Part shown: positions 4,103 through 50,189 of the stretch, in pieces | Numbering within the stretch: the stretch's first letter is position 1 | Layout of the letters: every line of letters begins with the position of its first letter | Assembly: GCF_000513895.2 (NCBI RefSeq) | Contig: NZ_CP165785.1 | Location: 124,001 to 188,000, forward strand | Reading direction: 5' to 3' | DNA from: Ensifer sp. WSM1721 | GTDB taxonomy: Bacteria > Pseudomonadota > Alphaproteobacteria > Rhizobiales > Rhizobiaceae | DNA: 64,000 bases | Notes under the pieces: generated by a model | The model's database searches: none | What the model saw: the letters and a program-made list of their open reading frames with translations, nothing else | What the model was told of the DNA's origin: nothing | Position numbers and translations under genes: made by a program

Positions 4103-4129
4103 CGGTCCTCCCGCGCGCTCCGACTTTTA

Positions 4130-4141: not shown

Positions 4142-4197
4142 ATAATGACGACGCTGTCAAGTGGCATTTCGCGAGCGGACGGATTGGCGCCCGCCTG

Positions 4198-4710
4198 TCA
4201 GCCGCCGAAGCTGCCCGCCTGTGTGGGCACATGCACGTAGTTGCGGTCGAAATAGAGCAGCGCGTGGCCATCCTTGCGGGTGCGGATTTCCACCGCCTCG
4301 CCGATGAAGATATTGTGCGTGCCGACAAGGCGCGCCTCGACCAGACGGCAGTCGAAGGAGACGATGGCATCGGCGAGCGCCTGGTTGCCGGACTTAAGAT
4401 CGATCCACTCCGCGGCCGCATACCGGGCGTCCATGTCCGCCTGCTGGCCGGCAAAGCAGGCGGCGAGGTCCTTGTGCTCGCCCGTCAGCACATTGACGCA
4501 GAAACGGCGGTTCTCGACAAAGAGGCCGGTCTGGGCCGAACGACTGTTCATACAGACGAGTAGCGTCGGCGGCTCGTCGGTGACCGAACACATGGCGGTT
4601 GCGGTGAACCCGCCGCGCCCGGCAGGTCCGTTGGTGGTGATGACGTTGACGGGGGCGCAGACCCGCGCCATGGCGTCGCGGAACTCGGTCTTTGAAACGG
4701 CGGTTTCCAT
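4198..4710 (-). CDS. hpaC: 4-hydroxyphenylacetate 3-monooxygenase, flavin reductase component
   Basis: A 170-aa NAD(P)H:flavin oxidoreductase of the short-chain FMN-binding split-barrel family. Typical motifs: FRDAMARVCAPVNVITTNGPAGRGGFTATAMCSVTDEPPTLLVCMN at the N-terminus, NVLTGEHKDLAACFAG in the middle, and LLYFDRNYV at the end. It supplies reduced FAD to the HpaB oxygenase, whose gene lies immediately upstream on the same strand with only 9 bp between them. A second reductase of the same family occurs at 41041-41568. Confidence 0.92.
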   Translation of the reverse strand: METAVSKTEFRDAMARVCAPVNVITTNGPAGRGGFTATAMCSVTDEPPTLLVCMNSRSAQTGLFVENRRFCVNVLTGEHKDLAACFAGQQADMDARYAAAEWIDLKSGNQALADAIVSFDCRLVEARLVGTHNIFIGEAVEIRTRKDGHALLYFDRNYVHVPTQAGSFGG

Positions 4711-4719
4711 GGCATGCCC

Positions 4720-31814: not shown

Positions 31815-31903
31815 TGAAGTGACCTTCCGTGGCGATGCACGCCATTTGTTTCGAGAGTCGGCCGTGCCGGTGTGGACCCGGCCGCAGGGGTGTACTCCAC
31901 AGT

Positions 31904-33577: not shown

Positions 33578-34449
33578 ATCGCATGGTTCCTTGGATCGAG
33601 GCTGCGTCGAACGTCTTCGCCGACGAGATTGATGCTGGCGATCAGGCCGAAGAGCGCGAGGCCCGGGAACAGGCTGATCCAGTATTGGCCGGTCAGTAGG
33701 TACTGGAAGCCGTTTGCGACCGCGGAGCCGAGCGAGGGCTTGTCGATCGGAACGCCCAAACCCAGGAAGGAGAGGGTTGCCTCGAGTGCGACGGCATGGC
33801 CGACCTCTATCGGTATTAAGGTGATGGCGGGCGCGATGCTGTTCGGCAAAAGGTGACGGAAGACGATCCGGGAGGTCGGCAGCCGCATCAAGCGGGCCGC
33901 GTCCATGTAGGGCTTGCTTGCCTCGCTCAAGGCTACGCCGCGCGCGATCCGTGCATAGGTCGCCCATTGAGCGATGATCAAGGCCAGAATGATCCGGTCT
34001 ATGCCCGGCCCGAGCGTGACGATGGCGATGAGCGCAATCAGGATCGTCGGCAGGCTCAGCTGCAGGTCGACGAGCCGCATGATCGCAACATCCACCCACT
34101 TCCCAAAATAGGCAGCACTGACGCCGGCGGTCAGCCCGATCAGGGCGGCGATCGCGCTACTTACGATCGACACCACCAGGCTGATGCGAAGACCATAGAG
34201 GACGGTGCTGATGATATCGCGGCCGAGCCCGTCGGTTCCGAGCAGGTAGTGATAGCCACCGCTGCCAAGCGTGCCGGGCGGGGAGGACGCCTCCCAGCCG
34301 TAGATCTGCAGCGGATCGTAGGGATTTTGTGGTGCGATCAGCGGAGCGGCGACGGCAACCAGGATGTAGCTAACCAGCAGCACCTTGGACGCGGTGAGGA
34401 CCGGTCGATGTGGGCGCTTTTTCAGCGCGCTTAGGATTTGGGCTTTCAT
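33574..34449 (-). CDS. Peptide ABC transporter permease (DppC-like)
   Basis: A 291-aa membrane protein with about six helices. The DppC-type N-terminal part (LLVSYILVAVAAPLIAPQNPYDP) and LLGTDGLGRDIISTVLYGLRISL are followed by the ABC-permease cytoplasmic loop VALSEASKPYMDAARLMRLPTSRIVFRHLLPN with the EAA-like motif. It pairs with the DppB-like protein encoded 13 bp upstream. Both lie between the binding protein and the ATPase genes. Confidence 0.92.
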   Translation of the reverse strand: MKAQILSALKKRPHRPVLTASKVLLVSYILVAVAAPLIAPQNPYDPLQIYGWEASSPPGTLGSGGYHYLLGTDGLGRDIISTVLYGLRISLVVSIVSSAIAALIGLTAGVSAAYFGKWVDVAIMRLVDLQLSLPTILIALIAIVTLGPGIDRIILALIIAQWATYARIARGVALSEASKPYMDAARLMRLPTSRIVFRHLLPNSIAPAITLIPIEVGHAVALEATLSFLGLGVPIDKPSLGSAVANGFQYLLTGQYWISLFPGLALFGLIASINLVGEDVRRSLDPRNHAI

Positions 34450-34462
34450 GACGGGTCATCTT

Positions 34463-35440
34463 TCATGAAGACAGGCGCACGCGCGGGTCGAGCACGGCGT
34501 AGAAGAGGTCGACAAGGGCGTTGAGCACGACGAAGGCGACCGCGATGAAGGTCAGGGTCGCCATCACCACCGGCCGGTCGAGCAACTGGATGGAGTCGAT
34601 CAGGAGCTTGCCGACGCCCGGCCACGAGAAGATTGATTCCACCACTACGGCAAAGGCGAGCATGCCGCCGAACTGCAGACCGATGATTGTCACGATCGGC
34701 ACGCTGATGTTCGGAAGCGTGTGGCGGAGCAAGATCCTTTGCGAGGAAAGCCCCTTGGCACGGCAGAACCGCGTGTAATCCAGGTTTTCGACCTCAATCG
34801 TGCCCGATCGCGACAGGCGGGCGATCAGGGCGATGTTCGGTATCGCCAGCGCCAGGGCCGGAAGCACGAGGTGCCACAATCCGTTTGCAGTCAGAAAACT
34901 CCATTCCTGCCCCAGGAAGCTTGCAGTCGCGCCGCGGCCGCCGGACGGGAACCAGCCGGTCAGGATGGCGCCTACGAGGATAAGCATCATCGCCAGCCAG
35001 AAGGAAGGGATGCTCAGCGCAGACACGCTCGCCTTGAGCATGGTTCTGTCGAACAGGCTACCGCTCCGTCGGCCAGCAACCAGGCCGAGTCCAGTTCCGA
35101 GTGGCGCCGCAATGAGCATCGCGATGGAGGCGAGCTCCAGCGTCGCCGGCAGTTTGCTCATCACCAGATCGAAGGCCGGCAGGTGATAGATGTAGGAGAT
35201 GCCGAAGTTCCCGCTGACGACATTGCCGATAAAGACGAGGTACTGGCGCCAGATCGGCTGATTGAGACCGAGCGCGATCGTTGCAGCCCGAATGTCCTCG
35301 GGCGTCGCGGTTTCGACGTTGACGACGTTGAAGACCGGATTGCCGACGCTGTGGATGCCGATGAAACCAATCAGCGACATGGCGATGAGGAGCAGGAAGG
35401 CTTGGGACAACCTTCCCAATGCAACCGAAATCATGCCCAT
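34463..35440 (-). CDS. Peptide ABC transporter permease (DppB-like)
   Basis: A 325-aa membrane protein with roughly six helices. It has LLLIAMSLIGFIGIHSVGNPVF in helix 1, then ATPEDIRAATIALGLNQPIWRQYLVFIGNVVSGNFG, a DppB hallmark, and the EAA loop LDYTRFCRAKGLSSQRILLRHTLPN. Helices near the end include FIAVAFVVLNALVDLFYAVLDPRVRL. It starts 6 bp after the binding-protein stop, consistent with one transcript. Confidence 0.93.
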   Translation of the reverse strand: MGMISVALGRLSQAFLLLIAMSLIGFIGIHSVGNPVFNVVNVETATPEDIRAATIALGLNQPIWRQYLVFIGNVVSGNFGISYIYHLPAFDLVMSKLPATLELASIAMLIAAPLGTGLGLVAGRRSGSLFDRTMLKASVSALSIPSFWLAMMLILVGAILTGWFPSGGRGATASFLGQEWSFLTANGLWHLVLPALALAIPNIALIARLSRSGTIEVENLDYTRFCRAKGLSSQRILLRHTLPNISVPIVTIIGLQFGGMLAFAVVVESIFSWPGVGKLLIDSIQLLDRPVVMATLTFIAVAFVVLNALVDLFYAVLDPRVRLSS

Positions 35441-35446
35441 GACCGC

Positions 35447-37048
35447 TTACTCCGCCGCCGCAAGCGTCTGCATCGCGGTCGTCCAGCCGCGGGGGTGCAT
35501 CACATAGGAGCCGATCCGCGGGCCGTATCCGACGATGTGGTGGAAATGGTAGAGCGGTATGATCGGCTGGTCGGCCATTACGAACTCCGTCGCCTGCGCG
35601 AGCGCCGCGTTCCGCCCCGGTCCCGCCTCAACGCTCTCTGCCTTTGCCAGCATCCCGTCGAAGGCAGCGTTCTGATATTTCCCGAAGTTCAACGCACCGG
35701 TCCCGCGCTCGGAATTCGGAGAAGCGAGCAGCGTATGGAGAATGATGTCGACCGCCTCGCCGGAGGTGCCGCCGTACCAGACACCATAGTCGCCAGCCGC
35801 TCGCTTGGTGTTGAAGACCGAGAACGGTGCGGCTGCAGGCTGGGCGTTTACGCCGATGCGGGCCCAGCTTTGGGCGATCGCCTGAAGACTTTCGGCGTCA
35901 CCCGGGTAACGGCCCGCCGGCCCAGCGAGAACAAGGTTGAAACCATCCGGGAACCCGGCCTTCGAAAGAAGGGTTTTTGCCTCTTCGTAGTTGGGCGCCT
36001 CGGGCAGGAGTTTCGCCGAGGTGCCCGGCAGGCTGTTGGGAAAGACCTGAGCAGCAGCCGTGCCATAGCCCGCGAGGATCTTGTCGACGAGAATGCCCCG
36101 GTCCGTAGCCAACGCAAGCGCCCGGCGGACCAGCGGGTTCTTGAAGGGATTGGCGATCGGTTCACCCGATTTGTCGGTCACGCCCGGAAGCGTCTCACGC
36201 GCAACGTCGAACTGTACGAAGTTAACACGTGCAGCACCCACGCTCGCGATTTTGGCGCCGCGCTGCTCCAAGGAGGCGACGTCGCGGGCCGGGATTGCGT
36301 CGGCCACATCGACCTCTCCCGTGCTGAGCGCCGCCACGCGCGCTGCCGGGTTCTCGATGACCCGGAAGGTAACCTTGGACCAGACAGGCTCGCCGCCCCA
36401 GTAGTCGTCGTTCCGGGCAAGCCTCAGGCTCTCGCCGGAACTCCACCTCTCGAATCTGTAAGGGCCAGTACCGACAGGCGGGCGTCCGGCGTTGAGGTCC
36501 TCGGTCGTCACGAACCCCTCAGAGGGCCGGTTCATCACAAAAATGGAGGAGAAAGAGAGGGGCAGATTGGGGACTGCGCCGTTCGTCTCGATAAGGACGG
36601 TAAGGGGATCGGGTGCCGAGACCGACTTGATGCCGCTCACATAGGAGCGAAAGCCGCCGCTCGGCGGTTTCAGGACGTCCCGAATGCGCTCGATCGTGTA
36701 GACGACATCGTCTGCGTCAAACGCCGAGCCGTCATGGAACCGGACATTTTCGCGGAGCTTGAACTCCCATTGGCTATCGGACAGAGGCCGCCAGGAGGTG
36801 GCGAGGCCAGGCTTCAACTCAAGATTCTCATCCTGATAGACGAGCCGTTCATAAATATGGGAGAGAAGTGACGTGTTCTCGTTCAGGTTGGCATACTGCG
36901 GATCGAGCGTCATCAGCTTGTAGGACGTAGCGATCCGAAGCTCTCCCCGTTCCTGTGCCTGGGCCGGCGTCGCCGGAGCACTCCCGAGAAAGATGGAGAT
37001 CAGAAGCGCCGAAAGCAGGCGTGGCCGAAATGGGCTTCCCAGTTTCAT
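35447..37048 (-). CDS. Peptide ABC transporter substrate-binding protein (DppA/OppA-like, SBP family 5)
   Basis: A 533-aa periplasmic binding protein. A cleavable signal peptide runs MKLGSPFRPRLLSALLISIFLGS with APATPAQA-QE as the cleavage site. The mature protein shows family-5 motifs: TLDPQYANLNENTSLLSHIYERLVYQD, GLATSWRPLSDSQWEFKLRENVRFHDG and AFDADDVVYTIERI. It is the first gene of the dpp-like/capA/pepT operon. The ligand could be a di- or oligopeptide, opine or gamma-glutamyl compound; the accompanying CapA and PepT homologues favour a peptide. Confidence 0.92.
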   Translation of the reverse strand: MKLGSPFRPRLLSALLISIFLGSAPATPAQAQERGELRIATSYKLMTLDPQYANLNENTSLLSHIYERLVYQDENLELKPGLATSWRPLSDSQWEFKLRENVRFHDGSAFDADDVVYTIERIRDVLKPPSGGFRSYVSGIKSVSAPDPLTVLIETNGAVPNLPLSFSSIFVMNRPSEGFVTTEDLNAGRPPVGTGPYRFERWSSGESLRLARNDDYWGGEPVWSKVTFRVIENPAARVAALSTGEVDVADAIPARDVASLEQRGAKIASVGAARVNFVQFDVARETLPGVTDKSGEPIANPFKNPLVRRALALATDRGILVDKILAGYGTAAAQVFPNSLPGTSAKLLPEAPNYEEAKTLLSKAGFPDGFNLVLAGPAGRYPGDAESLQAIAQSWARIGVNAQPAAAPFSVFNTKRAAGDYGVWYGGTSGEAVDIILHTLLASPNSERGTGALNFGKYQNAAFDGMLAKAESVEAGPGRNAALAQATEFVMADQPIIPLYHFHHIVGYGPRIGSYVMHPRGWTTAMQTLAAAE

Positions 37049-37082
37049 TCGAAGTTCCTTGTTTTAGTTTTTTGGTAGAGTC

Positions 37083-37120
37083 GGAACGTCGCGTTGGAGC
37101 AGTTCTCAACGCGGGGTTCC
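37083..37120. repeat. Two-part inverted repeat upstream of the peptide operon
   Basis: Outer arms GGAAC (37083-37087) and GTTCC (37116-37120) and inner arms CGCGTTG (37090-37096) and CAACGCG (37107-37113) pair around a 10-base loop, with a 2x2 internal mismatch. It lies about 35 bp upstream of the binding-protein start. It could be an operator, a leader hairpin or the terminator of the upstream small gene; it lacks a T-run on the minus strand. Confidence 0.4.
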
Positions 37121-37205
37121 ACGGCAATGCATGCAAGGGCGCGTTTGCGCATGTCATGTGAAGTTGAGCCGAGGCCGGAACCGCGCGTACTCCGCCGTCG
37201 CCCGT

Positions 37206-37763
37206 TCAACTGCTTTGAAACTCGGGTTGGAGTTCGGGCGTCGACAGGCGATTTCGTCCGCTTGCAACTGAGGCCATATCGATCTGCAGGAGGTCGGCGA
37301 TGACGATACGGATTTGCGGCCAAGGCTCTTCCTGGCTTGTGGGGGAGGGCTGCCATTTGGTCATGGCGGCATGGAGTTTGGCGGCGGCGCCCGCGACCGA
37401 CACCGCCGGCGTCTCCCACAAGGTTTCCGCGGCCCGCTCCTCCGCGATGGATGCACGATCCTCAGCTTCGAGGGCCTCGCTGTAGGTTCGCGAGCCTGCG
37501 CCTTGCTCGAGCGGTGGTGGCAAACAAACCGGAAAGAGCGATCTTTCGAGCTGCTGCTGGCGCAAGTTTGATTCGCATAAGCGCTGCCAGGCGGCGCACC
37601 ATTGGTGCCAAAGTGCGAGCGCGTGATCTTCGCCGCGCGGATCGGAAGACCGGCTCTTTGTGATGGCAAGCTCTGGAGGTGTGGGTAAGGACGCCGCCAC
37701 GAAGGAATGGAAATCTCCTCGGGTGACCGTAGACAAAGTTCTGCTATTGTCGGAATCAGCCAT
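37206..37763 (-). CDS. Hypothetical protein (helical, rhizobial)
   Basis: A 185-aa protein starting MADSDNSRTLSTVTRGDFHSFVAASLPTPP. The middle is rich in Glu/Ala (EDHALALWHQWCAAWQRLCE, then YSEALEAEDRASIAEERAAETLWETPA) and suggests helical bundles; VAGAAAKLHAAMTKWQPSPTSQEEPWPQIRIVIADLLQID follows near the C-terminus. It resembles a family of orphan rhizobial proteins, often several per genome. No catalytic motif or membrane helix is seen. It is transcribed leftward 157 bp upstream of the peptide operon and divergent from a small HTH gene. Confidence 0.7.
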   Translation of the reverse strand: MADSDNSRTLSTVTRGDFHSFVAASLPTPPELAITKSRSSDPRGEDHALALWHQWCAAWQRLCESNLRQQQLERSLFPVCLPPPLEQGAGSRTYSEALEAEDRASIAEERAAETLWETPAVSVAGAAAKLHAAMTKWQPSPTSQEEPWPQIRIVIADLLQIDMASVASGRNRLSTPELQPEFQSS

Positions 37764-38641: not shown

Positions 38642-40219
38642 CTAAGCTGCTTGGACGGAACCTCGGCCCACGAGGCTGATGTCATCCGGATTTATCAGAT
38701 CAGAACCCGTCCATCCGGAGAGGTCGTACTCGCTCATGCAGGCCTTCACCAAGGACTGCATGGACGCGAGATCGCCGGTGACCGTCGCCGCTCCTAAGGT
38801 CTCGATCCGAAGGTTTTCATAGTTACCCGCATAATTGCGCTCATACAGTTCGTGGCGACCGCCGAACTCGGTGCCGATGGCATCCCACAGAAGCTTCAAG
38901 AGCTTCACCCGGTCCAGCGCGGCATAGCCGTTCGAGCCACGTACGAAGCGGTCAAGATAAGGACGGATCGCCTCACTTTCGAAATCGGCAGCACTCGACG
39001 GCAGATAGATAAGGCCGCTCGCAACGTGACGCTCGATCAGCTCCTTGATCCGCGGGTAGGCCATCGGCGCCAACACGCGGTAGGCAAGACCGGCATTGAG
39101 GTTCGGCAGGTTGTAGCCTTCGGTTCCCTGCCAAGGAACCGGCGACTTCACCATCGCATCACCGAGTGCATGAAACGTGTTGCGCCAAGCGATGACCTCG
39201 CCGACGCCGGCCTGGACGCCGCGAAAATCCTTCGAGCCCGTTGCCTCGACAGCCATCGAGAAGAGACCGGCGATGAAGTCGAGTTTCACCGACAGGCGCG
39301 TAAGGCCGTGCAGCGTAAAGCGTGGGACGAAGCCCGATGCTGGGAAGAACTGATTGATCTTGTCGACGTCTCCGTAGATGAACACGTTCTCCCAAGGCAC
39401 CAATACCTTGTCGAAGACGAGAATGGAGTCGTTCTCGTCCAGGCGGCTGGAAAGCGGGTAGTCAAAAGGCGATCCGGTCGCGGCCGCATTGAACTCGTAC
39501 GACGAGCGGGCAATGAGCTTGATGCCAGGCGAGTCCATTGGCGCGGTAAAGATTAGCGCAAAGGACCTGTCCTTGATTGGAATGCCATAGTGGGCGATGA
39601 AATTGTAGTGCGTGAGAGCCGAACCCGTCGCGACGACCTTGGCTCCCGAGACAATGAGCCCCTTGTCCGTCTCCTTCTCGACATGCATGAAGACGTCGCG
39701 CACCTCCTCGATCGGGCGGTCACGATCGATCGGCGGATTGACGATGGCGTGATTCCAGTAGTCGAGCCGCTCCTGCGTGCGGGCGTACCAGGTGCGCGCA
39801 TTCTCGGCATATTCGCCGTAGAAGGCCGAATTGGCACCCAGTGTTCCCAAGAACGAGGCCTTGTAGTCCGGGGACCGGCCCATCCACCCGTAGGAGACCT
39901 TCTGCAGCTCGGCAATCGCGTCCCGCGACTTGATCAGATCCTCGCTCGTCTTCGATCCCAGGAAGAAGGGATGCGTCAGCTTATCCGAGCCGGTATCGGT
40001 CAGCACGCCGATTTCATTCTTCTTTTCGTGGAACCGATCGTACCAGCGCGCCACCATTCGCGCGGAATTCCGAAATGCCGGATGCTCGGTGACGTTTTTG
40101 ACGCGCTCACCGTAAATATAGATCTCGCGGCCGTCCTGAATGCTCTCCAGGAACTCCGAGCCCGTGTAAGCGTCGGTCGCGGTTTCTTTTTCCTCGGACG
40201 CGATAGCCAGATTGTTCAT
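38642..40219 (-). CDS. Second HpaB-like two-component flavin monooxygenase, oxygenase component
   Basis: A 525-aa paralogue of hpaB with the same landmarks: [82 protein letters not shown] and [17 protein letters not shown]. It should hydroxylate a phenolic substrate with reduced FAD. It is transcribed alone, divergent from the reductase/dioxygenase operon 229 bp away, and ends in a strong hairpin. The intradiol-dioxygenase neighbours indicate an ortho-cleaved catechol product rather than homoprotocatechuate, so its phenol is likely different from 4-hydroxyphenylacetate. Ribosome site GGAGGAG precedes 40219. Confidence 0.9.
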
Positions 40220-40448
40220 TTCGGGTCACTCCTCCATTTAGCCGGACAAGCTGCCTGCCCGGCGGGCGCCTAAATCCGAAAGGGCGCCTCCTCCCTTTCC
40301 GAGGCAACAAACTATGCGCTGAAGAAGAGCGATTGATAGGTATCATGCGATACCAGTTCAGGCATCGCAGCGTGTGCCATCAGCCGCTAGGCTTGCGTCA
40401 TTGATGGCACTGGAGAAGTCGCCATGGTTGGGAACATGGGAGGAGACC
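40220..40448. promoter_or_regulatory. Divergent promoter region, monooxygenase versus ortho-cleavage operon
   Basis: A 229-bp region that should bind the LysR regulator encoded at the operon end. I see GATTGATAGGTATCATGCGATACC near 40330, where GGTATCATGCGATACC is a nearly symmetrical 16-mer (GGTATC / GATACC, 4-bp centre) and contains a T-N11-A arrangement, as LysR sites do. Confidence 0.5.
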
Positions 40449-41054
40449 ATGGATCATCACCCCCGCATTCATACGCAGATTCACGACGACACCGGATTGA
40501 CGCTTTCCGGGTCGGCCCTGACGATCGGAGCCTTTGATGGCGTCCACAGCGGCCACCAGGCGTTGATCCGGTCGACCGTGCTCAGTGCGCAAAGACTCGG
40601 GGTTCCCTCGGTCGTCTACACGTTCGATCCGCCTCCCAAGGCTCTGCTGTGCGGTGCCCGTCCGCTCACTTCGATTGGCGAGAAAGTCGCGCGGATAAGC
40701 GCACTTGGCCCCGACCACATCGTCGTCGCCCGTTTCGATGCGGCCTATCGGGCCCGCACAGCCACCGATTTCATCCAGGATGTCGGTCGGGTCGCGCCGC
40801 TGGTCATCTGGATCGGCTCCGATTTCCGCTTCGGTTCCTGCAAGAAAGGGACTCCGGAGTTGCTCGCCAGCTACTTCGATACGCGGATCCTTCCAGCCGT
40901 ATGCTGCGAATCCGGCGAGGTCGTATCGAGCACACGCATTCGCGCCCTTAGGGCCGCAGGACGTGTCCTGGAGGCAGAACGGCTGGAAGGATGGTCGGAG
41001 CTTCTGCCGTTTCGACCGTCCAGTGACAATGGAGGACACCATGCGACTGCTTGA
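40449..41054 (+). CDS. FAD synthetase-like nucleotidyltransferase (RibF N-domain only)
   Basis: A 201-aa protein matching the FMN adenylyltransferase half of bacterial RibF: ALTIGAFDGVHSGHQALI (HxGH nucleotide site) near residue 25, VVYTFDPPPKALL, and IGSDFRFGSCKKGTPELL with EVVSSTRIRALRAAGRVLEAERLEGW. The riboflavin-kinase C-terminal domain of RibF (normally ~310 aa) is missing. It should turn FMN into FAD. Start at 40449 (MDHHPRIHTQIHDD) follows GGGAGGAG. Its last 14 bp overlap the flavin reductase gene. A dedicated FAD-maker beside a flavin monooxygenase is unusual. Confidence 0.85.
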   Translation: MDHHPRIHTQIHDDTGLTLSGSALTIGAFDGVHSGHQALIRSTVLSAQRLGVPSVVYTFDPPPKALLCGARPLTSIGEKVARISALGPDHIVVARFDAAYRARTATDFIQDVGRVAPLVIWIGSDFRFGSCKKGTPELLASYFDTRILPAVCCESGEVVSSTRIRALRAAGRVLEAERLEGWSELLPFRPSSDNGGHHATA

Positions 41055-41568
41055 CCCCCGTACGTTTCGCGACGCCTGCGGTGTCTTCGCGACTGGTGTT
41101 AATGTCATTACCACACATAGCGACGGCCACGATCACGGCATGACTGCGAATGCGTTCATGTCGATTTCGCTCGATCCGCCACTGATTGCCATCTCAATCG
41201 CCGAGAAGGCGCGAATGCTCGAGAAAATCCAGAAGTCGGGGCGTTTCGCCGTCAGCGTTCTTGCTTGCGGAATGGACTCTGTTGCTTGGCACTTCGCAGG
41301 CAAGCCAAACGCTGACCTGCATGATTTGTTCGACACACTCGATGGCCTTCCAGTGATCCGCGGCGCGCTTGTCACGTTCTCGGCCATCGTCCACGACGAA
41401 ATCCTCGCCGGCGATCACACGATCTTCGTCGGCCGTGTCCAGTCGCTCGCGAGAAGCGACGGCGATGAACCGCTGCTTTTCTTCAAAGGCAAATTCGGCG
41501 TCGTGGAAAATACGCGAAAGGCTGCGTCAGTCGACAGGCTTGAGGTCGAGACCGAGTTCATGTGGTGA
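41041..41568 (+). CDS. Flavin reductase of the HpaC/split-barrel family
   Basis: A 175-aa flavin:NAD(P)H reductase: FRDACGVFATGVNVITT, GMTANAFMSISLDPPLIAISI, FAVSVLACGMDSVAWHFAGK and FVGRVQSL follow the HpaC-type pattern, with a C-terminal PLLFFKGKFG. It is expected to supply FADH2 to the divergent HpaB-like oxygenase. The start at 41041 follows GGAGGACACC and overlaps the FAD synthetase-like gene, so translation is coupled. Confidence 0.9.
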   Translation: MRLLDPRTFRDACGVFATGVNVITTHSDGHDHGMTANAFMSISLDPPLIAISIAEKARMLEKIQKSGRFAVSVLACGMDSVAWHFAGKPNADLHDLFDTLDGLPVIRGALVTFSAIVHDEILAGDHTIFVGRVQSLARSDGDEPLLFFKGKFGVVENTRKAASVDRLEVETEFMW

Positions 41569-41608
41569 GGACGGAACCGCCCACCTACGCATTTGCAAGG
41601 AGGAGAAA

Positions 41609-42478
41609 ATGCGAAACGTAAGCCAGCAAAATATTTCGGATGTCGTAATCGCCGCACTGTCGCCGGATATTCCGGCCCGCAACCGGCAGATTCTCGCAAG
41701 CCTCATCCGCCACATCCACGCCTTCTGTATCGAGGCGAAGATCACCCATGCGGAGCTGATTGAAGCCTGTCAATTCCTCGTCCGCGCCGGACACATTTCA
41801 GATCACGCACGCAACGAGTTCATCCTGCTTGCCGACATCCTGGGCGTCGAAGTCCTTGTCGACATGCTCGACCACGCGGTGACCGATGGCGAGAGCGAAT
41901 CCACCGTCCTCGGACCGTTCTATCGCGAAAACCCGCCCGTTTTGCCGAAGGGCGCCTCGATTGTTCAGAAGAGCTTCGAAGGCTCCGAGACAGTGCGTGT
42001 CCGCGGAGTGGTGCGCGACACGGCAGGACGCCCCATTCCTGGCGTGACGGTCGACGTTTGGGAGGACGCCCCGAACGGCCTCTATGAACAGCAGGATCCG
42101 GATCAGCCCGATTACAATCTTCGCGGCCGCTTCCTGACCGACGAAAAAGGCGAATACGAATTCGTCGGAATTCGGCCGGTTCCCTATCCGATCCCCTACG
42201 ACGGCGCCGCCGGCGAATTGCTGAACTATATGGGGCACCACCCGTGGCGCCCTGGCCATATCCACTTCATGCTCAAGAAGGATGGCTATTCAAGCCTTGT
42301 CTCGCAGATCTATGACGCGGACACCGAGTATCTCGACAACGACGCGGTCTTCGCGGTTAAGGAAAGCCTGATTGGCAAGATGGGCAAGGCCGGAGCTGGC
42401 GCGGATACGGATCTCGTCATGGAATTCGATTTCAAGCTCAAGCCGGCCAAGGGCACCATAGCTGTCGCCGCCGAGTAA
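41609..42478 (+). CDS. Intradiol ring-cleavage dioxygenase (catechol / hydroxyquinol 1,2-dioxygenase type)
   Basis: A 289-aa non-heme Fe(III) dioxygenase of usual length. An N-terminal helical dimerisation region (about 1-100) precedes TVLGPFYRENPP, then the iron ligands: Tyr in NGLYEQQD, Tyr in PYPIPYDGAAG, and two His in HPWRPGHIHFML. It opens a catechol between the hydroxyls to a cis,cis-muconate or, for hydroxyquinol, to maleylacetate. The next gene encodes a muconate-cycloisomerase-like enzyme, favouring catechol or a substituted catechol. AAGGAGGAG precedes 41609. Confidence 0.9.
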   Translation: MRNVSQQNISDVVIAALSPDIPARNRQILASLIRHIHAFCIEAKITHAELIEACQFLVRAGHISDHARNEFILLADILGVEVLVDMLDHAVTDGESESTVLGPFYRENPPVLPKGASIVQKSFEGSETVRVRGVVRDTAGRPIPGVTVDVWEDAPNGLYEQQDPDQPDYNLRGRFLTDEKGEYEFVGIRPVPYPIPYDGAAGELLNYMGHHPWRPGHIHFMLKKDGYSSLVSQIYDADTEYLDNDAVFAVKESLIGKMGKAGAGADTDLVMEFDFKLKPAKGTIAVAAE

Positions 42479-42552
42479 TCACCGCAGCAGCATTCAAGCA
42501 TCGATCCGCCGAGCGGCGTCTCTGGCGGATCAGCTCGAAAGGCAATAGGAAC

Positions 42553-43740
42553 ATGCCCCTCGCCATCGCTGAACCATCCTCAACTCCTGACCATTCCGCG
42601 GCCAGTACGCGGGACACGCGGATTCGGTCCATAGCAGCGACCATCCTCGAGGCTCCTACCGTTCGCCGGCACAAGCTTTCGAACACGGAGATCGCCCATC
42701 AGGGATTTGTTCTCGTGCGGGTTCTGCTTGAGAACGGTGTGACGGGCATCGGCGAGGCTTCTACGCTCGGCGGGCCGCGTTGGGCCGAGGAGAGTGTTGA
42801 GTCAATACAGGCGGTCATCGAGAAATATCTCGCCCCCGCCCTCGCCGATCAGAATGCCATGCTGTTCGAGGCCAATGCCGTGCGCATGTCAAAGGCGGCC
42901 ACGCGCAATTTCGCTGCAAAGGCGGCCGTCGAGTCGGCACTATTTGATGCCGTCGGCCGCACGCTCGGCCTGCCCGCCAGTGCCTTGCTCGGCGGGCAGG
43001 TCCGCGACAGAATCGGCGTGATCTGGGCGCTCGCCTCGGGCGACGCCGAACAGGAGCTGGAGGAAGCGCGCGAGAAGCTTCGTCTGCGTCAGCACAAGGA
43101 CTTCAAGATCAAACTCGGCTTCAACGCGCCGGATGCCGACGTGAGGCGCCTGCAACATTTGCGCGCTGGCTTGGGCGACGACGTGAGGCTGATCGTCGAC
43201 GTCAATCAAGCGTGGACGGAAGCACTATGCATCAGGCTCTTTCCCGCGCTCGAGGAACTCGGCGTGGCACTGATCGAGCAACCGGTTCCGGCATCCCAAC
43301 GCGACGCCATGGCGCGCGTCGCTTCGCGGACCCGTATCCCGCTCCTCATCGACGAGGCGGCCTTCACCAACACGGAACTGGCGAGTGTCGCCTCGCGCGC
43401 CTGCGGAAGCGTTTATTCCCTCAAGCTGGTGAAAAGCGGCGGGCTTCTTGAGCTCAAGCGAGCGGCCGGCATCGCGCAGGCATTCGGTATCGAGCTTTAT
43501 GGCGGGTGCCTGCTGGAAAGCAGCATCGGCGCAGCAGCGCACATGGCTGTGTTTTCGACGCTCCCCAAGCTCGAATGGGGAAGCGAGCACTTCGGGCCAC
43601 GTATTCTCGTGGACGACCTGGTCGCGGCGCCGCTGGTCTTCGAGGAGTTCGAGATCCATGTACCGAGCGGCCCTGGGCTCGGCATGATCCTCGACGAAGA
43701 TAAGGTGCGCTTTATGGCGCGGAAGGCAGGAAGCAAATGA
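42553..43740 (+). CDS. Muconate/chloromuconate cycloisomerase-like enolase-superfamily enzyme
   Basis: A 395-aa enzyme of the muconate lactonising subgroup of the enolase superfamily: ASTLGGPRWAEESVESIQ near residue 75, KIKLGF with the catalytic Lys pair near 178, LIVDVNQAW (metal Asp), LIEQPVPA (metal Glu), PLLIDEA (metal Asp) and LKLVKSGG with the second base Lys. It would convert a cis,cis-muconate to a muconolactone. It follows the dioxygenase and overlaps the next gene by 4 bp (ATGA). An extra N-terminal part (about 30 residues) precedes the usual family start; an internal start is possible. Confidence 0.87.
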   Translation: MPLAIAEPSSTPDHSAASTRDTRIRSIAATILEAPTVRRHKLSNTEIAHQGFVLVRVLLENGVTGIGEASTLGGPRWAEESVESIQAVIEKYLAPALADQNAMLFEANAVRMSKAATRNFAAKAAVESALFDAVGRTLGLPASALLGGQVRDRIGVIWALASGDAEQELEEAREKLRLRQHKDFKIKLGFNAPDADVRRLQHLRAGLGDDVRLIVDVNQAWTEALCIRLFPALEELGVALIEQPVPASQRDAMARVASRTRIPLLIDEAAFTNTELASVASRACGSVYSLKLVKSGGLLELKRAAGIAQAFGIELYGGCLLESSIGAAAHMAVFSTLPKLEWGSEHFGPRILVDDLVAAPLVFEEFEIHVPSGPGLGMILDEDKVRFMARKAGSK

Positions 43741-44138
43741 CGCCTGGAACGCCGCACACTGTACATCGCTCCAAACTCGATCACATGGCGGAGAGACTCG
43801 ACGCGACGCCTCATCTCCTGCGCCTCGGGCGCCTGTTCAATGAAACGGTGCTGATCGAGATCGACCAGGATGAGTTTTACCTCACCTTCGAGAAGGGCCG
43901 CGTCGCAGAGATCAAAGAAGGTCCAAGCAAGAAACTGCCCTGGCGCTTCGCGCTCAGGGCCAAAGGTGAGGCGCTGGACAAATTCTGGCATCCGATACCG
44001 GAGCCCGGCTTCCATGACATTTTCGGTCTTGTGAAATATGGGCATGGCCGCATCGACGGAGATATTCTGACGCTCGTGAAAAACCTGCGCTACTTCAAGG
44101 AATTCATGGCATTGGGACGGCGGGAGGAAAGCCAATGA
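43737..44138 (+). CDS. Unknown protein, possibly SCP2-like
   Basis: A 133-aa protein without a confident family. VLIEIDQDEFYLTFEKGRVAEI, then FALRAKGEALDKFW and GHGRIDGDILTLVKNLRYFKEFM resembles the beta-sheet/helix order of sterol-carrier-protein-2-like domains, which bind small hydrophobic ligands. No signal peptide. It overlaps the cycloisomerase gene and the following hydrolase gene by ATGA junctions, so it is made stoichiometrically with pathway enzymes. It could be a ligand carrier or an unrecognised isomerase in place of muconolactone isomerase; this is inference. Confidence 0.6.
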   Translation: MTPGTPHTVHRSKLDHMAERLDATPHLLRLGRLFNETVLIEIDQDEFYLTFEKGRVAEIKEGPSKKLPWRFALRAKGEALDKFWHPIPEPGFHDIFGLVKYGHGRIDGDILTLVKNLRYFKEFMALGRREESQ

Positions 44139-45004
44139 CATCGTCGATCGAGCCGATCACCGGCCGATATATCCGCCTGACCGTCGATGGCACACCATTG
44201 CGGGTCTACTTCGAAGAAGCCGGCCGAGGCCGTCCGGTGGTCTGCCTGCATACGGCCGGGGCCGATACGCGCCAATGGCGGTTCATTCTCAACGACGAGG
44301 TTTTCACCAGTTCGCACCGCTTCCTGGCATTCGACATGCCCTGGCACGGCAAGTCTTTGCCGCCGCAAGGATTCGAGACTGCGGAATACCTTCTGACCAC
44401 CGGAACCTACATCGAAACAGTGCTCTCGTTTTGCAACGCGCTGGGCCTGGAGAAGCCGCTGCTCGCGGGGTGCTCAATGGGGGGTCGGATCGCTCTGCAA
44501 CTGGCAGCGCTGCATCCCGATCGTTTTGCCGGCTTCATCGCCGTCGAGGCGTCCGATTTCCAGCCGGCGTGGTATGACATTGATTGGTTTCATCGTCCCG
44601 ACGCCCATGGCGGCGAGATGGGCGCCGCCCTAGTGTCGGCCAATATTGCGCCTCAGGCGCCCCCCGTCGAACGCTGGAACACCCAGTGGATGTTCATGCA
44701 ATCGGGGCCAGGGGTGTTCCGCGGCGATCTCAGTTTCTACACGAAGGATGACAGCCTCGTCGGCAGGCTGGGAATGATCGACACGAGACAGACGCCGGTG
44801 CATATCATGTGCGGCGAATACGACATGACCTGCACACCCGAGGACGCCCGTCGGACCGCGGAGGCCATTGACGGCGCCACCCTTGCCATCATGAAGGATC
44901 TTGGACATTTTCCGATGAGCGAGAACCCCGCCGCCTTCCGGTCCTATTTTCAGGAGGCGCTGGAGCTTATGAGACACTCCCATGCGGAGCTAACTCATGC
45001 CTGA
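44135..45004 (+). CDS. Alpha/beta hydrolase (enol-lactone-hydrolase-like)
   Basis: A 289-aa serine hydrolase: VVCLHTAGADTRQWRFI (oxyanion region), GCSMGGRIALQLAAL (nucleophile elbow, Ser near residue 111), CGEYDMTCTP (acid) and DLGHFPMSENP (His). It belongs with MhpC/enol-lactonase-type hydrolases. In an ortho pathway a beta-ketoadipate enol-lactone hydrolase is expected, but no muconolactone isomerase gene is seen. Coupled by ATGA to the upstream gene. Confidence 0.82.
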   Translation: MTSSIEPITGRYIRLTVDGTPLRVYFEEAGRGRPVVCLHTAGADTRQWRFILNDEVFTSSHRFLAFDMPWHGKSLPPQGFETAEYLLTTGTYIETVLSFCNALGLEKPLLAGCSMGGRIALQLAALHPDRFAGFIAVEASDFQPAWYDIDWFHRPDAHGGEMGAALVSANIAPQAPPVERWNTQWMFMQSGPGVFRGDLSFYTKDDSLVGRLGMIDTRQTPVHIMCGEYDMTCTPEDARRTAEAIDGATLAIMKDLGHFPMSENPAAFRSYFQEALELMRHSHAELTHA

Positions 45005-45010
45005 CGGACG

Positions 45011-45895
45011 ATGATGGACTTCAAACGGCTGAGCTATTTTCTGGCGGTGGCGGAAGAGCTGCATTTCGGAAGGGCGTCCGCGCGGCTCGGCATTGCCCAA
45101 CCTCCGCTCAGTCGCCAGATAGCTCAGTTCGAAAAGGAGATCGGGGCAATCCTGTTCGATCGCAGCCGCAGCCAGATCAGGCTCACCCAAGCGGGCGAAC
45201 TGCTTCAGGAACGGGCAAGAGAAATATTGGAGCGCGTTGACCAGACGGAGCGCGAGGTGAAACGCATCGGCGAAGGGGTTGCAGGTCGTCTGCGGATCGC
45301 CTTCGTCGGCACCGCCACGTTCGGAGTCCTGCCCAACATCATCAAGGCATTTCGAGTTGCCAATCCGGACATCGAGTTGGCACTGTCTGCCATGAACAAC
45401 GCTGAGCTGAAGCGCGCCCTGATCCAGAGGGAGATCGATATTGCTGCTGCGCGTCCGGCCATCGAGGATTCGGAGCTGAAAGCCGAGACGTTGATCCAGG
45501 AGCCGCTGGTCCTTGCGCTGCCAGACGTATACGCCGACTTCCAAGGTCCGATGAAGCTCGAAGAACTGCGAGAAACGCCGTTCGTGCTTTTCCCGCGCCG
45601 ACCGAGGCCGAGCTACGCGGACTACGTCCTCGACGTCTGCAAGCGGAACGGCTTCATCCCTGCTTCACAGGTTATGGCTCAGGACTTTTTGACCGCTATC
45701 AGTCTCGTCTCGGTCGGCGTGGGTGTGTGTGTCGTGCCCCAGTCGGTCGCCCTCAACGAGCGGACCGGGGTCGTCTACCGGAATTTTGAAGGGTTCAATC
45801 CGGGCACCAAACTCTCGCTAAACTATCGACGCGACAACCGCTCGCCACACCTGTTCCGGTTTCTGGCGCTCGCGCGGAAATTGGCCCGCATGTAA
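45011..45895 (+). CDS. LysR-type regulator of the ortho-cleavage operon
   Basis: A 294-aa LysR protein: LSYFLAVAEELHFGRASARLGIAQPPLSRQIAQFEKEIGAILFDRS is the winged HTH, followed by a standard effector-binding domain (RLRIAFVGTATFGVLPNIIKAFR and SLVSVGVGVCVVPQS). The HTH linker resembles CatR/BenM regulators, which sense muconate. It is the last gene of the operon on the same strand, 6 bp after the hydrolase, which is less usual than a divergent LysR gene; its target probably lies at 40220-40448. Confidence 0.9.
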   Translation: MMDFKRLSYFLAVAEELHFGRASARLGIAQPPLSRQIAQFEKEIGAILFDRSRSQIRLTQAGELLQERAREILERVDQTEREVKRIGEGVAGRLRIAFVGTATFGVLPNIIKAFRVANPDIELALSAMNNAELKRALIQREIDIAAARPAIEDSELKAETLIQEPLVLALPDVYADFQGPMKLEELRETPFVLFPRRPRPSYADYVLDVCKRNGFIPASQVMAQDFLTAISLVSVGVGVCVVPQSVALNERTGVVYRNFEGFNPGTKLSLNYRRDNRSPHLFRFLALARKLARM

Positions 45896-46140: not shown

Positions 46141-46725
46141 TTACTTCAAGCGCAGTACCATGACCAGCTCGTCGTTCTCGGTGCCGTGGCCCAGGAAGCC
46201 GTTTGGAATGCGGCCAACTTCTACGAAACCGTGGCGTTCATAGAAGCGTATCGCTGCTGAATTCTCTGCACTGACCGCGAGCTCCAGCTGCAGAACGCCG
46301 CAGTCTCGTGCATGCTCTGCAACTTCGTGCAAAAGGGTTGCAGCAAGCCCGGTTCCGCGTTCGCTTTTCCGCACATAGACACTGACAAGTCTCGCGCGAT
46401 GGGTCATTTTTCTAGCACGCTCCAACCTGAGCGCCATCATGCCGACGGGCTGCCCACTTAGGAACGCAACAAACACCGGCTGAGCCAGATGTTGGCGCCA
46501 TTCGCGGGCAGAGAGATGGACCCAATCACCAAAGACACTCGCAAACGAAATCGGTTCGTGTGACAGCGCCTCCAGACGTATGCGGCGAAACACGTCTACG
46601 TCCTTGACCGATAGGCGCCGGATCACCGCTCCTCTTTCAATCACACGTCGATCTCCAGCACGCGCTTCTATGCCGGGCATCTGATCGGATGCACGTAGAC
46701 GCTCCAGCATTGAAGCGCTCGGCAT
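46141..46725 (-). CDS. GNAT-family N-acetyltransferase
   Basis: A 194-aa acetyltransferase: IRRLSVKDVDVFRRIRLEALSHEP, LVSVYVRKSERGTGLAATLLHEVAEHAR (acetyl-CoA motif Q/RxxGxG/A) and LELAVSAENSAAIRFYERHGFVEVG are textbook GNAT. The start could be 46725 or a later Met (46710, 46680). It is the last gene in the methyltransferase / 467-aa / GNAT run, with only 6 bp between it and the previous gene, so it should be read as part of the LuxR-linked operon. It does not look like LuxI, although LuxI folds similarly. Confidence 0.85.
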   Translation of the reverse strand: MPSASMLERLRASDQMPGIEARAGDRRVIERGAVIRRLSVKDVDVFRRIRLEALSHEPISFASVFGDWVHLSAREWRQHLAQPVFVAFLSGQPVGMMALRLERARKMTHRARLVSVYVRKSERGTGLAATLLHEVAEHARDCGVLQLELAVSAENSAAIRFYERHGFVEVGRIPNGFLGHGTENDELVMVLRLK

Positions 46726-46731
46726 CCGTTT

Positions 46732-48135
46732 TCACGGACGAGACCACTGCCATTCGACCGCCCCCGAGTTGATGAACCCGTTGGCGATGTGCTTCGACAG
46801 CTCCGCCCAGATCGGATCCCGGGTGAAACTTCCGAGATCACCGCTCGACTGCACCAAAGGCATCTCCGCGTATTCTGAAAGGGGCCTCGGGGCCTCGCCG
46901 AAAAGCTCCTGGAAGGGATAGCCGCCCGCAGGCTTCAAGACACGATGCCCCCAGAGCGCGGGTCGATCGTCCCCACGCAGCTCGGTCAAGAGATCGAAAT
47001 TACCCGATTGCTCAAGGCCAACCGCGGTTAGATAGCGCATAAGCGGGTAGTAGATTGTCTGGCGACATCCCCCAAGTGCCCTCACGCCGGGCAGGATGGA
47101 TGTCACCAGGAACACTGTATAGAGGCTGGGCACGATCGCTCGTTGCCGAAGCGCCGCTGCGATACTGTTCGGCCGGAACTTCACTTCGAAACTGGACGGG
47201 GCAGCAGCCCTGAGGGCGTTGTCCTGGAGGCGGAGCGGAACAATCCTACCCTTTTCCATGCGCCAGAACAGATCGGTCGTTCTGCGTACCCAACCCTGCC
47301 AGGGTCCAACGTTCAGGCGATCCATGGCGTGCAGGATGCTCTCGGCAGCCTTTCCGTCTCCGATGAAACCAGCCGACATCCAGGATCCCGCGTCGTCGAG
47401 ATGATCGGCGACCAGGTCTGCGATGTCGAAATCGTCGAGCTGAAGTAGCTTGATGGGGGAGGGGAGCTTGCCGTGCCAGAGGGTTTGATTGGCCGCCCTG
47501 ATTGCGTCGACCGCAGAAGCAAATTCATCAGACGGCAGTTCGGCGAGGAGAAGGGCGGCCGCGTCATTCGGTGCTGGATCGCCTTTGGCATTGGAGAAAG
47601 CGAAACGATAGGGACCATTCAGAGCGCAGATGCTGAATGAATCCATCCGGCTCCGGGGTAAGCCAAAGACGTTGAGGGGCTCGCCTTCAAGCCAGAGCCA
47701 TCCGGGACCCTTCTTTGCCTTTTCCGCGAAACTGACCGTTGAGGCGTGATACGTGATGTACCATTCGCGGCTATTGGCGTTCAGGCCCAACAGGCTGAAC
47801 AGATGCGTGTAGAACGCATCCGGTTCGATCAGCAGCAGGCAATGCGGACCGGTCTGCAGCACCGGCGATGCCACCAACTGAAGGCTGGCGCTTCGAGCTT
47901 CCTCAGGCTTGTAACCGGACCTGCGCGCCGCTCGTTCGATGCAACCGCGGAGCAGCTCCATTGCATGACGGCGCGCGCAACACTTGGCGTGGAAGTTTTC
48001 AACGTCGTGGGCAAACGAAGCGTAATCTCGAAGCGGACGCTCCCAATAGGAGGTAAGATGCGGCATCAATGCAGACAACGCGCGTTGCACCTCGGCTGCG
48101 CTGCAATGCTTGTTTGCTATGGGTGGTGCCGTCAT
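46732..48135 (-). CDS. Unrecognised 467-aa protein of the LuxR-linked operon
   Basis: I do not recognise a family. It is 467 aa and soluble, with no signal peptide. Notable parts: an N-terminal helical section with Cys-Cys (FHAKCCARRHAMELLRGC), CLLLIEPDAFYTHLFSLLGLNANSREWYITYH, GPGWLWLEGEPLNVFGLPR, DDFDIADLVADHLDDAGSW, VFLVTSILPGVRALGGCRQTIYYPLM and GHRVLKPAGGYPFQELFG. No Walker, Rossmann or catalytic-triad signature is obvious. The start lies 1 bp after the methyltransferase stop. It is one of the better candidates in this window for a new enzyme or ligand-synthesis protein. Confidence 0.8.
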   Translation of the reverse strand: MTAPPIANKHCSAAEVQRALSALMPHLTSYWERPLRDYASFAHDVENFHAKCCARRHAMELLRGCIERAARRSGYKPEEARSASLQLVASPVLQTGPHCLLLIEPDAFYTHLFSLLGLNANSREWYITYHASTVSFAEKAKKGPGWLWLEGEPLNVFGLPRSRMDSFSICALNGPYRFAFSNAKGDPAPNDAAALLLAELPSDEFASAVDAIRAANQTLWHGKLPSPIKLLQLDDFDIADLVADHLDDAGSWMSAGFIGDGKAAESILHAMDRLNVGPWQGWVRRTTDLFWRMEKGRIVPLRLQDNALRAAAPSSFEVKFRPNSIAAALRQRAIVPSLYTVFLVTSILPGVRALGGCRQTIYYPLMRYLTAVGLEQSGNFDLLTELRGDDRPALWGHRVLKPAGGYPFQELFGEAPRPLSEYAEMPLVQSSGDLGSFTRDPIWAELSKHIANGFINSGAVEWQWSRP

Positions 48136-48136
48136 T

Positions 48137-49204
48137 TCACGATGCCAGACGCCTTGGCGCGAGCAGCGTCATGGTATTCGCGCCGCGCCACTTCAAATCA
48201 GGGGCCAACGCCTCTACCTCGGTATCGACGATCGCGGCTGGCAAACGTTCGTAGCAATAGCCTGGTGGAATTGCCGGCTTCACCATCAGCGAAATCAGTT
48301 CCAACACGGAAGCCCGGGAGTTGGATGACACGATCGTGTAGAAGTTCCCGCTGTTCCAGGTTAGCACCGAGTATCGGAAAAACGCCCCCAGAGCGGCTAC
48401 CGTAGTCGCCAGATCGACTTGAAGATCTGTCATCGTGTTGAGAACTTCATCCTTTTTCTTGGATATGTGGCCTGTCGAGAAGAACCGGGACTTGAAAAGC
48501 TCGTCCTTTTGCCGCTCTCGCTGCTCATAGATGTCGCGGTCTTCATGTGCGAGCTTCTGCACCTGCACGAGAAGACCGCCAGGCCGTATGCGAGGAACGA
48601 CGAACTCCAGCTGCTTTAGCCGATCGCGGTCGTACATCTGAAACGTCGTGTCCTCAAATAGCACGTCAAATCCGCCTCGAAATGGGAGAAGATCGTCGTC
48701 GGTCGCGTATCGGTCGTCGTCCAACTCAAAGAACGGGCCGTGGAAGAAGTGCGCGTGCTCGCTTCCCCGGTTCGCAAAGAATGATGCCCGGTTGGCTGCC
48801 GTTGGGCTGCAGCAGAGCGCCGCGATGCGACCATTGCCAAGCGTGGCAAGCGTGCGCGCAAGGCAACCAGTGCCCGTGCCCAGAGTGTATATTGTCGTTG
48901 GGGAGGCGCTGCGCGTCCAGGTCCTCAGGCCGAAGGAAAGTATCGCAGCACCCAGGCGGCACTCCTCTTCGAGCCTGTAGGGAATGCTGGCAAAGTAATG
49001 GCTGTCAAAATGGCCCCAAAGACGCCGATGTGTATCCGCGAAAACTGCGCCCTCGAGGTCGAAGTCGAGCAGGCTCATGTCGAGTTGCGGTTCGGCAAGG
49101 TCCGGTGCTCCACCTTCTCCGCTTGCGGTCCTTTCGAAGAACGCTGCGAACGATGTAAGCCTGGGAGCGTTTCGCCAGTGTTCAATCGTCAGTCGATCCA
49201 CCAT
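48137..49204 (-). CDS. SAM-dependent methyltransferase-like protein of the LuxR-linked operon
   Basis: A 355-aa protein with a class-I methyltransferase-like core: TTIYTLGTGTGCLARTLATLGNGRIAALCC (a GxGxG SAM loop, about residue 100) and GGFDVLFEDTTFQMYDRDRLKQLEFVVPRIRPGGLLVQVQ, which fits motif III-IV then post-I regions. An N-terminal ~90 residues and a C-terminal ~130 residues are extra. Start at 49204 (MVDRLTIEHWRNAPRL) follows GGGAG. It is the first gene after the 24-bp palindrome and heads the operon. Its target molecule is unknown. Confidence 0.75.
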   Translation of the reverse strand: MVDRLTIEHWRNAPRLTSFAAFFERTASGEGGAPDLAEPQLDMSLLDFDLEGAVFADTHRRLWGHFDSHYFASIPYRLEEECRLGAAILSFGLRTWTRSASPTTIYTLGTGTGCLARTLATLGNGRIAALCCSPTAANRASFFANRGSEHAHFFHGPFFELDDDRYATDDDLLPFRGGFDVLFEDTTFQMYDRDRLKQLEFVVPRIRPGGLLVQVQKLAHEDRDIYEQRERQKDELFKSRFFSTGHISKKKDEVLNTMTDLQVDLATTVAALGAFFRYSVLTWNSGNFYTIVSSNSRASVLELISLMVKPAIPPGYCYERLPAAIVDTEVEALAPDLKWRGANTMTLLAPRRLAS

Positions 49205-49333
49205 AGCCATCTCCCAAATACCATCGGCGGAGGCGCGCTTCATCTCAGCTCTCATCGAGATGTTTGGGCTGCGCCAGCATCCCCCGTGTGTGACTTTGTG
49301 AGTGCCATGTGTGGACCCTGGCGAGGGGGCAGC

Positions 49334-49357
49334 CAATCTACCGAATTCGGTAGATTG
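49334..49357. promoter_or_regulatory. Perfect 24-bp palindrome, probable LuxR (lux-box) operator
   Basis: Halves CAATCTACCGAA (49334-49345) and TTCGGTAGATTG (49346-49357) are exact reverse complements. It sits 130 bp upstream of the methyltransferase start and 50 bp downstream of the LuxR gene's stop. Length, perfection and context fit a binding site for an AHL-responsive LuxR dimer. Confidence 0.7.
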
Positions 49358-49406
49358 ATGTTGTTGGGAAAGCCCAACGGAGACTCGAAGCTGCGATCGA
49401 GCGCGG

Positions 49407-50189
49407 TCAGACCTTGATCAATTCGAGGAAGCTCGCCTTGGCAACGGCGTGATGACTTGTTGCGGCACCCAATTTGAGCCTTGCCGATCGCAGGTACAAC
49501 TTCACGGAATTTTCAGAGATGCCCAGGTCCGCTGCTATCTGTTTGGCAATCCGACCTGTCGCAAGTAATTGAAGACATTGGCCTTCGCGCCTGGAGAGGT
49601 CTCTATAGCGGCCGACCTCTCGAAGGCCGGTGGTAGAAAACACCGTCTCATGAAGATAGTGTGACAGGATCTGCAGCTCGTGAATGCTCGAAGCGCGTAG
49701 CCGCGACCAATCGCGCTTGGGTAGGTTCGAGGTCACGGAAAAGAGACAGCGTTCGCCTTTTGGACCTCGGATAGGGATCGTGAGGCCATTCGGACCGATG
49801 TCGTAGGAACGCGCTTCTTTAAATACACGGGAGGCCCGTGCTGACCGCCGATCGAGAGAGGACCAATCCACCGGCATGAAACCCCACCGAACGACGTCAA
49901 TCACCGGGTCTATGTCGAAATAGCGCTTGTCGACGTAGATCTCTGCCCATGCTTCTGGATAGGTCGTGCAGTAATAGGGGTATGAGTCTGACCTGCCTCC
50001 GCTGCAAACCACGAGGAATGTCATGTGCGACAAGCCGTATCGCACGCAAAGTTCGTCCAGTGCAGGGAGAAGCTCCTCCCGATGCTTCGCTGCCTGCAGC
50101 GTTCTGAGCGACCGTGACAGTCGACGGTGATCGAATATGGGGAGAATGCTTCGGTTTGCTGCCATTTTGCTCTGTGGTTCGACCGTCAC
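49407..50189 (-). CDS. LuxR-family quorum-sensing regulator (AHL-binding type, no LuxI in window)
   Basis: A 260-aa LuxR protein with an autoinducer-binding domain (about 30-185) and a C-terminal LuxR HTH. AHL-contact residues are in the expected spacing: W81, Y85, D94 and W109 correspond to TraR W57, Y61, D70 and W85 by a constant offset of 24. HTH residues E202, L206 and G212 correspond to TraR E178, L182 and G188. GPNGLTIPI precedes the last autoinducer segment. It is a canonical AHL sensor rather than a plant-signal-type variant. The cognate synthase is not in the window. The gene lies upstream of the palindrome and of the operon it probably controls. Confidence 0.9.
   Translation of the reverse strand: MTVEPQSKMAANRSILPIFDHRRLSRSLRTLQAAKHREELLPALDELCVRYGLSHMTFLVVCSGGRSDSYPYYCTTYPEAWAEIYVDKRYFDIDPVIDVVRWGFMPVDWSSLDRRSARASRVFKEARSYDIGPNGLTIPIRGPKGERCLFSVTSNLPKRDWSRLRASSIHELQILSHYLHETVFSTTGLREVGRYRDLSRREGQCLQLLATGRIAKQIAADLGISENSVKLYLRSARLKLGAATSHHAVAKASFLELIKV

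Follow-up and report, generated by a model that had tools for sequence, protein, structure and literature searches.

The locus described here lies in a stretch of 64 kb (C4:124001-188000; hereafter the window, whose own positions are used below) of a 6.33-Mb genome of four contigs. The replicon that carries it, C4, is 354,666 bp long. A regulator gene, a palindromic site and three enzyme genes follow one another there:

49407 to 50189, minus strand: luxR, an AHL-type LuxR regulator (Pfam Autoind_bind and GerE)
49334 to 49357, no strand: 24-bp lux-type box, the perfect palindrome CAATCTACCGAATTCGGTAGATTG, centred 142 bp upstream of the MT start
48137 to 49204, minus strand: MT, a class I SAM-dependent transferase of 355 aa with a predicted CmoA/CysG-like fold
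46732 to 48135, minus strand: U467, a protein of 467 aa with a predicted BshC / class I LysRS-like fold, a probable amino-acid ligase
46141 to 46725, minus strand: accessory GNAT-family acyltransferase (Acetyltransf_1, E 1.1e-18)

The LuxR protein exceeds the Pfam cut-off for both of its domains (Autoind_bind, E 4.9e-31; GerE, E 7.1e-13). Its start is either GTG 50189 or ATG 50165, and the reading frame of a close homologue in locus L005 also begins at the latter. The preliminary description of this DNA had mapped the protein to TraR with a constant offset of 24. In the alignment with TraR (1h0m), residues 74-252 fall on 50-228, an offset of 24 at either end. If the TraR pocket is numbered, as we assume, W57, Y61, D70, P71, W85 and G113, the equivalents of the first five lie at +24 as well, but the offset is not strictly constant, since glycine 135, taken for G113, lies at +22. 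Six conserved positions of the AHL pocket and core are invariant in all 37 LuxRs aligned (those of the window and L104, 33 linked to the operon and two other LuxRs of L017; the minus-strand proteins of L024, L032 and L044 were excluded). Many rhizobial LuxR solos have, to our knowledge, no known target or ligand.

The LuxR gene stands directly before a perfect 24-bp palindrome, as had been claimed. A TTG start for MT at 49336, giving an ORF of 399 aa, was ruled out; it lies inside the palindrome, and homologues start with 'MVD', which corresponds to ATG 49204. With MT starting at this ATG, the box falls in the promoter region. It is the sole perfect palindrome of at least 20 bp within the window; in 20 first-order Markov sequences, palindromes of 20 bp and 22 bp averaged 0.15 and 0.05, and none reached 24 bp.

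The same arrangement is found in many other rhizobia. An alignment of 52 sequences (U467 and 51 relatives, taken from 120 relatives listed) led to 41 loci on genome contigs, from Sinorhizobium/Ensifer, Rhizobium, Agrobacterium, Neorhizobium, Phyllobacterium and others; the closest named U467 proteins are from Sinorhizobium/Ensifer. MT precedes U467 in all 41, and GNAT follows it in 23 and is missing in 18. In 33 loci a related LuxR gene with the orientation of MT stands upstream of it, mostly adjoining MT and up to about 3 kb off in L009; eight loci show none there. The MT or U467 frames seem interrupted in five loci (L019, L027, L033, L041 and L042). A box was called where the highest-scoring site in the interval from 40 to 260 bp upstream of MT had at least 10 of 12 arm positions correct. 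By this rule it is present in 40 of 42 loci (the 41 and the window), 98-165 bp from the start; in L013 and L038, both also without an upstream LuxR, the best site scores 8.

As the best site per region was taken, the independent tests of the box are the genome-wide scans. On both strands of the 6.33-Mb genome the full pattern occurs once, with three further places at two mismatches and none closer. Allowing up to three mismatches gives 31 matches, compared with 21 for the reversed pattern; in this genome, then, the perfect site alone is distinctive. Among 297 Rhizobiaceae genomes, the strict box was found at seven sites in six genomes and the reversed control at none, and about one chance match is expected by our estimate from the base count. 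Five of these sites precede the operon (this genome, two in G019, G896 and G859), and one precedes a luxI gene (G965; the same contig site as in G800). The remaining site, in G997 (L107:6638-6661), precedes the ATG of an ORF of 192 aa by 4 bp; neither the MT operon nor luxI lies within the surrounding 14 kb, and the site is possibly a chance occurrence.

Further evidence connects the box with AHL synthesis. Loci L011 and L037 contain a second above-threshold box, each directly upstream of a luxI homologue. In G800 (L011 and L104), the order is MT-U467-ABC importer-CapA, followed by the box, luxI (220 aa) and luxR. The LuxR encoded in L104 is 43% identical to that of the window and 37-50% to the operon-linked LuxRs, compared with 22-28% to two unrelated LuxRs. 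In G801 (L105) luxI is shorter, encoding 179 aa, and a search of the 11 kb beyond the gene revealed no member of this LuxR family. With box, luxI and luxR beside the operon, the circuit seems to have been retained in full in G800, and the window would represent a solo-LuxR form of it. Quorum control of the operon, which the preliminary description had proposed, is well supported by this comparison between genomes, in which the box is conserved and, in another genome, precedes a luxI-luxR pair whose LuxR belongs to the same family.

The earlier statement that the window holds no LuxI was borne out, as tblastn with the LuxI of the same genome detected no homologue in the 64 kb. The genome has three luxI genes, one of them on the same replicon (C4:353806-354330) and followed by a gene which we take to resemble trbB. 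All three are candidate AHL sources; no box-like site with up to three mismatches was found near them. A second luxI gene, on contig C3 (L001:1501-2034), has as its neighbour a gene with 80% identity to the trbB-like one of C4. In Allorhizobium borbori (L017), another luxR-luxI pair (3413-4824) is located upstream of the operon's own LuxR.

The junctions within the operon measure 1 bp (MT/U467) and 6 bp (U467/GNAT), as first reported. U467 had been described as a protein of no known family. At the sequence level this holds, with no Pfam family matched, but the predicted fold is BshC-like. The BshC profile PF10079 was not detected in any of the 52 U467 members at E 1, in this genome at E 10, or in 398 genomes of the phylum, in a search whose own controls gave a signal in 3 of 14 genomes. 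Comparison with hhalign was not significant for BshC (probability 0.05%, E 0.8, with only three BshC sequences), nor for class I LysRS or for a group of frames from other class I synthetases. A sequence-profile search against PDB chains gave a best E of 0.044, to an unrelated protein. The connection of U467 to BshC is therefore one of predicted fold, as hhalign was not significant and PF10079 gave no match. The bacillithiol cysteine-adding enzyme BshC itself (PDB 4wbd) is about 10% identical to U467 and has other gene partners. The class I lysyl-tRNA synthetase (PDB 1irx) is like the predicted fold of U467 but gave no significant hhalign match, and its profile PF01921 gave only partial matches in this genome, inside frames of 617-981 aa.

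A distant U467 relative (L053; 544 aa, E 4e-16) overlaps an aminotransferase gene in an alphaproteobacterial genome of 1.6 Mb, and the pair may form a pathway of two genes within the same ligase superfamily. A search through L053 for a wider U467 family gave one near-identical protein and reached no wider family. The coordinates recorded for this relative are L053:1414-3048 and L054:11162-12490, both on the minus strand.

Profile searches did not place the three genes in a known primary-metabolism cluster, an outcome that the preliminary description had named as telling against its reading: U467 has no family, and the only Pfam match of MT is generic to methyltransferases and below threshold. 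MT has the seven-strand SAM-binding fold in its predicted structure. CmoA-like enzymes are capable of SAM chemistry other than methyl transfer. The likeness of MT to CmoA and to the cystargolide/belactosin O-methyltransferases CysG and BelI is that of the predicted SAM-enzyme fold, whereas MT has 355 aa against about 210-260 for these proteins. Its sequence-profile search against PDB chains gave a best E of 0.0034 to an unrelated protein and 0.16 to CmoA. NmbA was also weighed as a parallel, from the available part of its description (PMC12719100); it is not among the 50 matches listed for MT, which excludes nothing. The GNAT scores 68 bits with Acetyltransf_1, against a cut-off of 20.7.

The operon is patchily distributed and largely plasmid-borne. 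U467 was found in 7 of 60 genomes (this one and relatives), all seven of the same genus, and 385 genomes of the class gave two matches, in this genome and the distant one of L053. PLSDB contains 145 plasmid records with U467, of which 121 are predicted to be conjugative. The operon is carried mostly by predicted conjugative plasmids of legume symbionts and their soil relatives, including Sinorhizobium meliloti and S. medicae. The dN/dS ratios of the four genes, LuxR included, are 0.12-0.21 against L006 and 0.15-0.44 against L004; comparison with L027 was unusable for LuxR and U467, synonymous sites being saturated. These data describe a real, conserved and quorum-linked operon with a BshC-like orphan enzyme.

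A transporter module accompanies the operon in many genomes. In the window it stands apart from it, at 30579-37763:

37206 to 37763, minus strand: x197, which opens the module (no Pfam match; 57% identity over 174 aa to the L028 counterpart)
35447 to 37048, minus strand: SBP5-type periplasmic binding protein of an ABC importer (SBP_bac_5, E 2e-79; 79% identical to that of L022)
34463 to 35440, minus strand: ABC permease 1 (an ORF; the L039 counterpart is BPD_transp_1)
33574 to 34449, minus strand: ABC permease 2, inferred from ORF position, length and order
31904 to 33577, minus strand: ABC ATPase of 557 aa, apparently with two ATP-binding halves (an ORF with inferred start; the L039 counterpart is ABC_tran)
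30579 to 31814, minus strand: CapA-family (PGA_cap) protein (E 2.4e-48)

Flanks extended to at most 8 kb, so the neighbour counts in the 41 loci are lower bounds. Downstream of the operon, the SBP5-type importer is present in at least 20 loci, x197 in at least 13 and CapA in at least 7; upstream, an oppositely oriented MFS gene occurs in at least 9 and tra genes in at least 13. CapA at 49% identity or more, a threshold chosen after the hits were known, accompanies U467 in 7 of 7 positive genomes and occurs in 2 of the 53 negative ones of the same 60, and relatives at E 0.001 occur in 28 of the 60. The two genes are 15-67 kb apart on one contig in four genomes and on separate contigs in three, which argues against adjacency as the sole cause of their co-occurrence, although the count is weakened by plasmid linkage and the relatedness of the genomes. 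The importer, for its part, may be a neighbour independent of the operon.

Between the operon and the module (38642-45895) lies a block resembling aromatic catabolism, with what are presumably a flavin monooxygenase, a flavin reductase, an intradiol dioxygenase, cycloisomerase-like and lactonase-like proteins and a LysR regulator, named by likeness and recall save those with a Pfam match. An M20-family peptidase gene (29287-30516) directly follows CapA, and other genes follow CapA in L104 and L046.

The class I synthetase-like and CmoA-like features of U467 and MT could also mean that both act on tRNA or another macromolecule instead of a diffusible metabolite. This is very improbable, as the box, the patchy occurrence on plasmids and the co-occurring importer better fit a secreted small molecule, and CmoA, which makes the cofactor carboxy-SAM, does not itself act on tRNA.

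The main rival of a biosynthetic role is one in plasmid conjugation, with LuxR as a second TraR-like regulator and the enzymes modifying a transfer component or signal. C4 is probably a conjugative plasmid, because it carries traB/traH homologues, a second LuxR gene (a partial-length match to the window's LuxR at 31% identity) and luxI with the trbB-like gene. Together with the large share of predicted conjugative plasmids among those with U467, this speaks for the rival, as do the traB/traH-type genes upstream of the operon in 13 of the 41 loci, 10 of these also with traA. In L045, from a Rhizobium lusitanum plasmid, the last 4 bp of traA are shared with MT, and the annotation of the stretch shows no LuxR; the enzymes can thus be linked to transfer genes as well. 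However, 28 of the 41 loci have no such tra gene in their flanks of up to 8 kb, U467 of this genome lies about 170 kb from traB/traH (C4:170.7 against 340 kb), rhizobial plasmids are often conjugative anyway, and the predicted folds are those of small-molecule enzymes. A conjugative role is accordingly considered rather unlikely. In L045 (15753-28913), where MT-U467-GNAT come directly after traA, a radical-SAM / peptidase-domain ABC transporter cluster adjoins.

RcgA and RcgR, from group I-C rhizobial plasmids, are described in the available parts of PMC9601222 and PMC13055273 as a predicted membrane protein and a protein with an alpha/beta-hydrolase domain, respectively. They share with the present genes a hypothetical status and a place near tra genes on rhizobial plasmids, but MT, U467 and GNAT, compared by these partial descriptions, resemble neither, and Pfam gave no alpha/beta-hydrolase match in the three. 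The published descriptions, as far as their available parts go, rule out that the present genes are RcgA/RcgR or the pRet42a genes RHE_PA00163-165.

The reading preferred here, to which we assign a probability of roughly 60%, is that the window holds a biosynthetic unit, borne on a plasmid and controlled by AHL, in its solo-LuxR form. LuxR, with an AHL from one of the three LuxI proteins encoded elsewhere in the genome or from neighbouring cells, would bind the box and activate MT-U467-GNAT. U467, whose predicted fold resembles those of BshC and class I aminoacyl-tRNA synthetases, would bind or activate an amino acid and join it to an amine-bearing partner, MT would methylate the substrate or an intermediate with SAM, and GNAT, where present, would acylate a free amine. 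The small product might be released, then taken up via the SBP5 importer and processed with CapA. Each of these steps, from LuxR-AHL activation through ligation, methylation and optional acylation to uptake, is inferred. The suggestion in the preliminary description of a route to a modified small molecule is in part supported, as the best reading of the predicted enzyme folds and the co-occurring importer module. The three enzymes together probably make a small molecule, in a unit common to many rhizobia.

A more specific proposal is tentative: U467 might found a new family of BshC-fold ligases outside bacillithiol synthesis, making an aminoacyl-type metabolite under AHL control. A dedicated SBP5 transporter would bring this metabolite back into the cell, CapA would take part in its processing, and the compound would serve, downstream of quorum sensing, as a plasmid-borne signal of a second tier or as a private nutrient. 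Comparison has pinned the target operon, the exact operator and, in another genome, the probable cognate luxI, so ligand and output are directly testable. In organisms with no detectable BshC, a predicted BshC-like fold is moreover found together with a SAM enzyme, an acyltransferase and an importer, which points to a small-molecule pathway missed by the profile libraries used.

No printed description of the operon was found in the open-licence literature, judged by titles and abstract starts. The word 'transferase' occurs zero times in the main text of a paper on Rhizobium quorum sensing (PMC13133039) and zero times in one on S. fredii HH103, a strain with a recorded U467 relative (PMC7022240). 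Among LuxR-linked biosynthetic clusters of Proteobacteria, NRPS and PKS are the most common types according to the available part of PMC5872303. The present unit shares with those clusters a pathway-specific LuxR beside biosynthetic genes and differs from them, as described in that part, in having neither NRPS nor PKS and in being three genes long.
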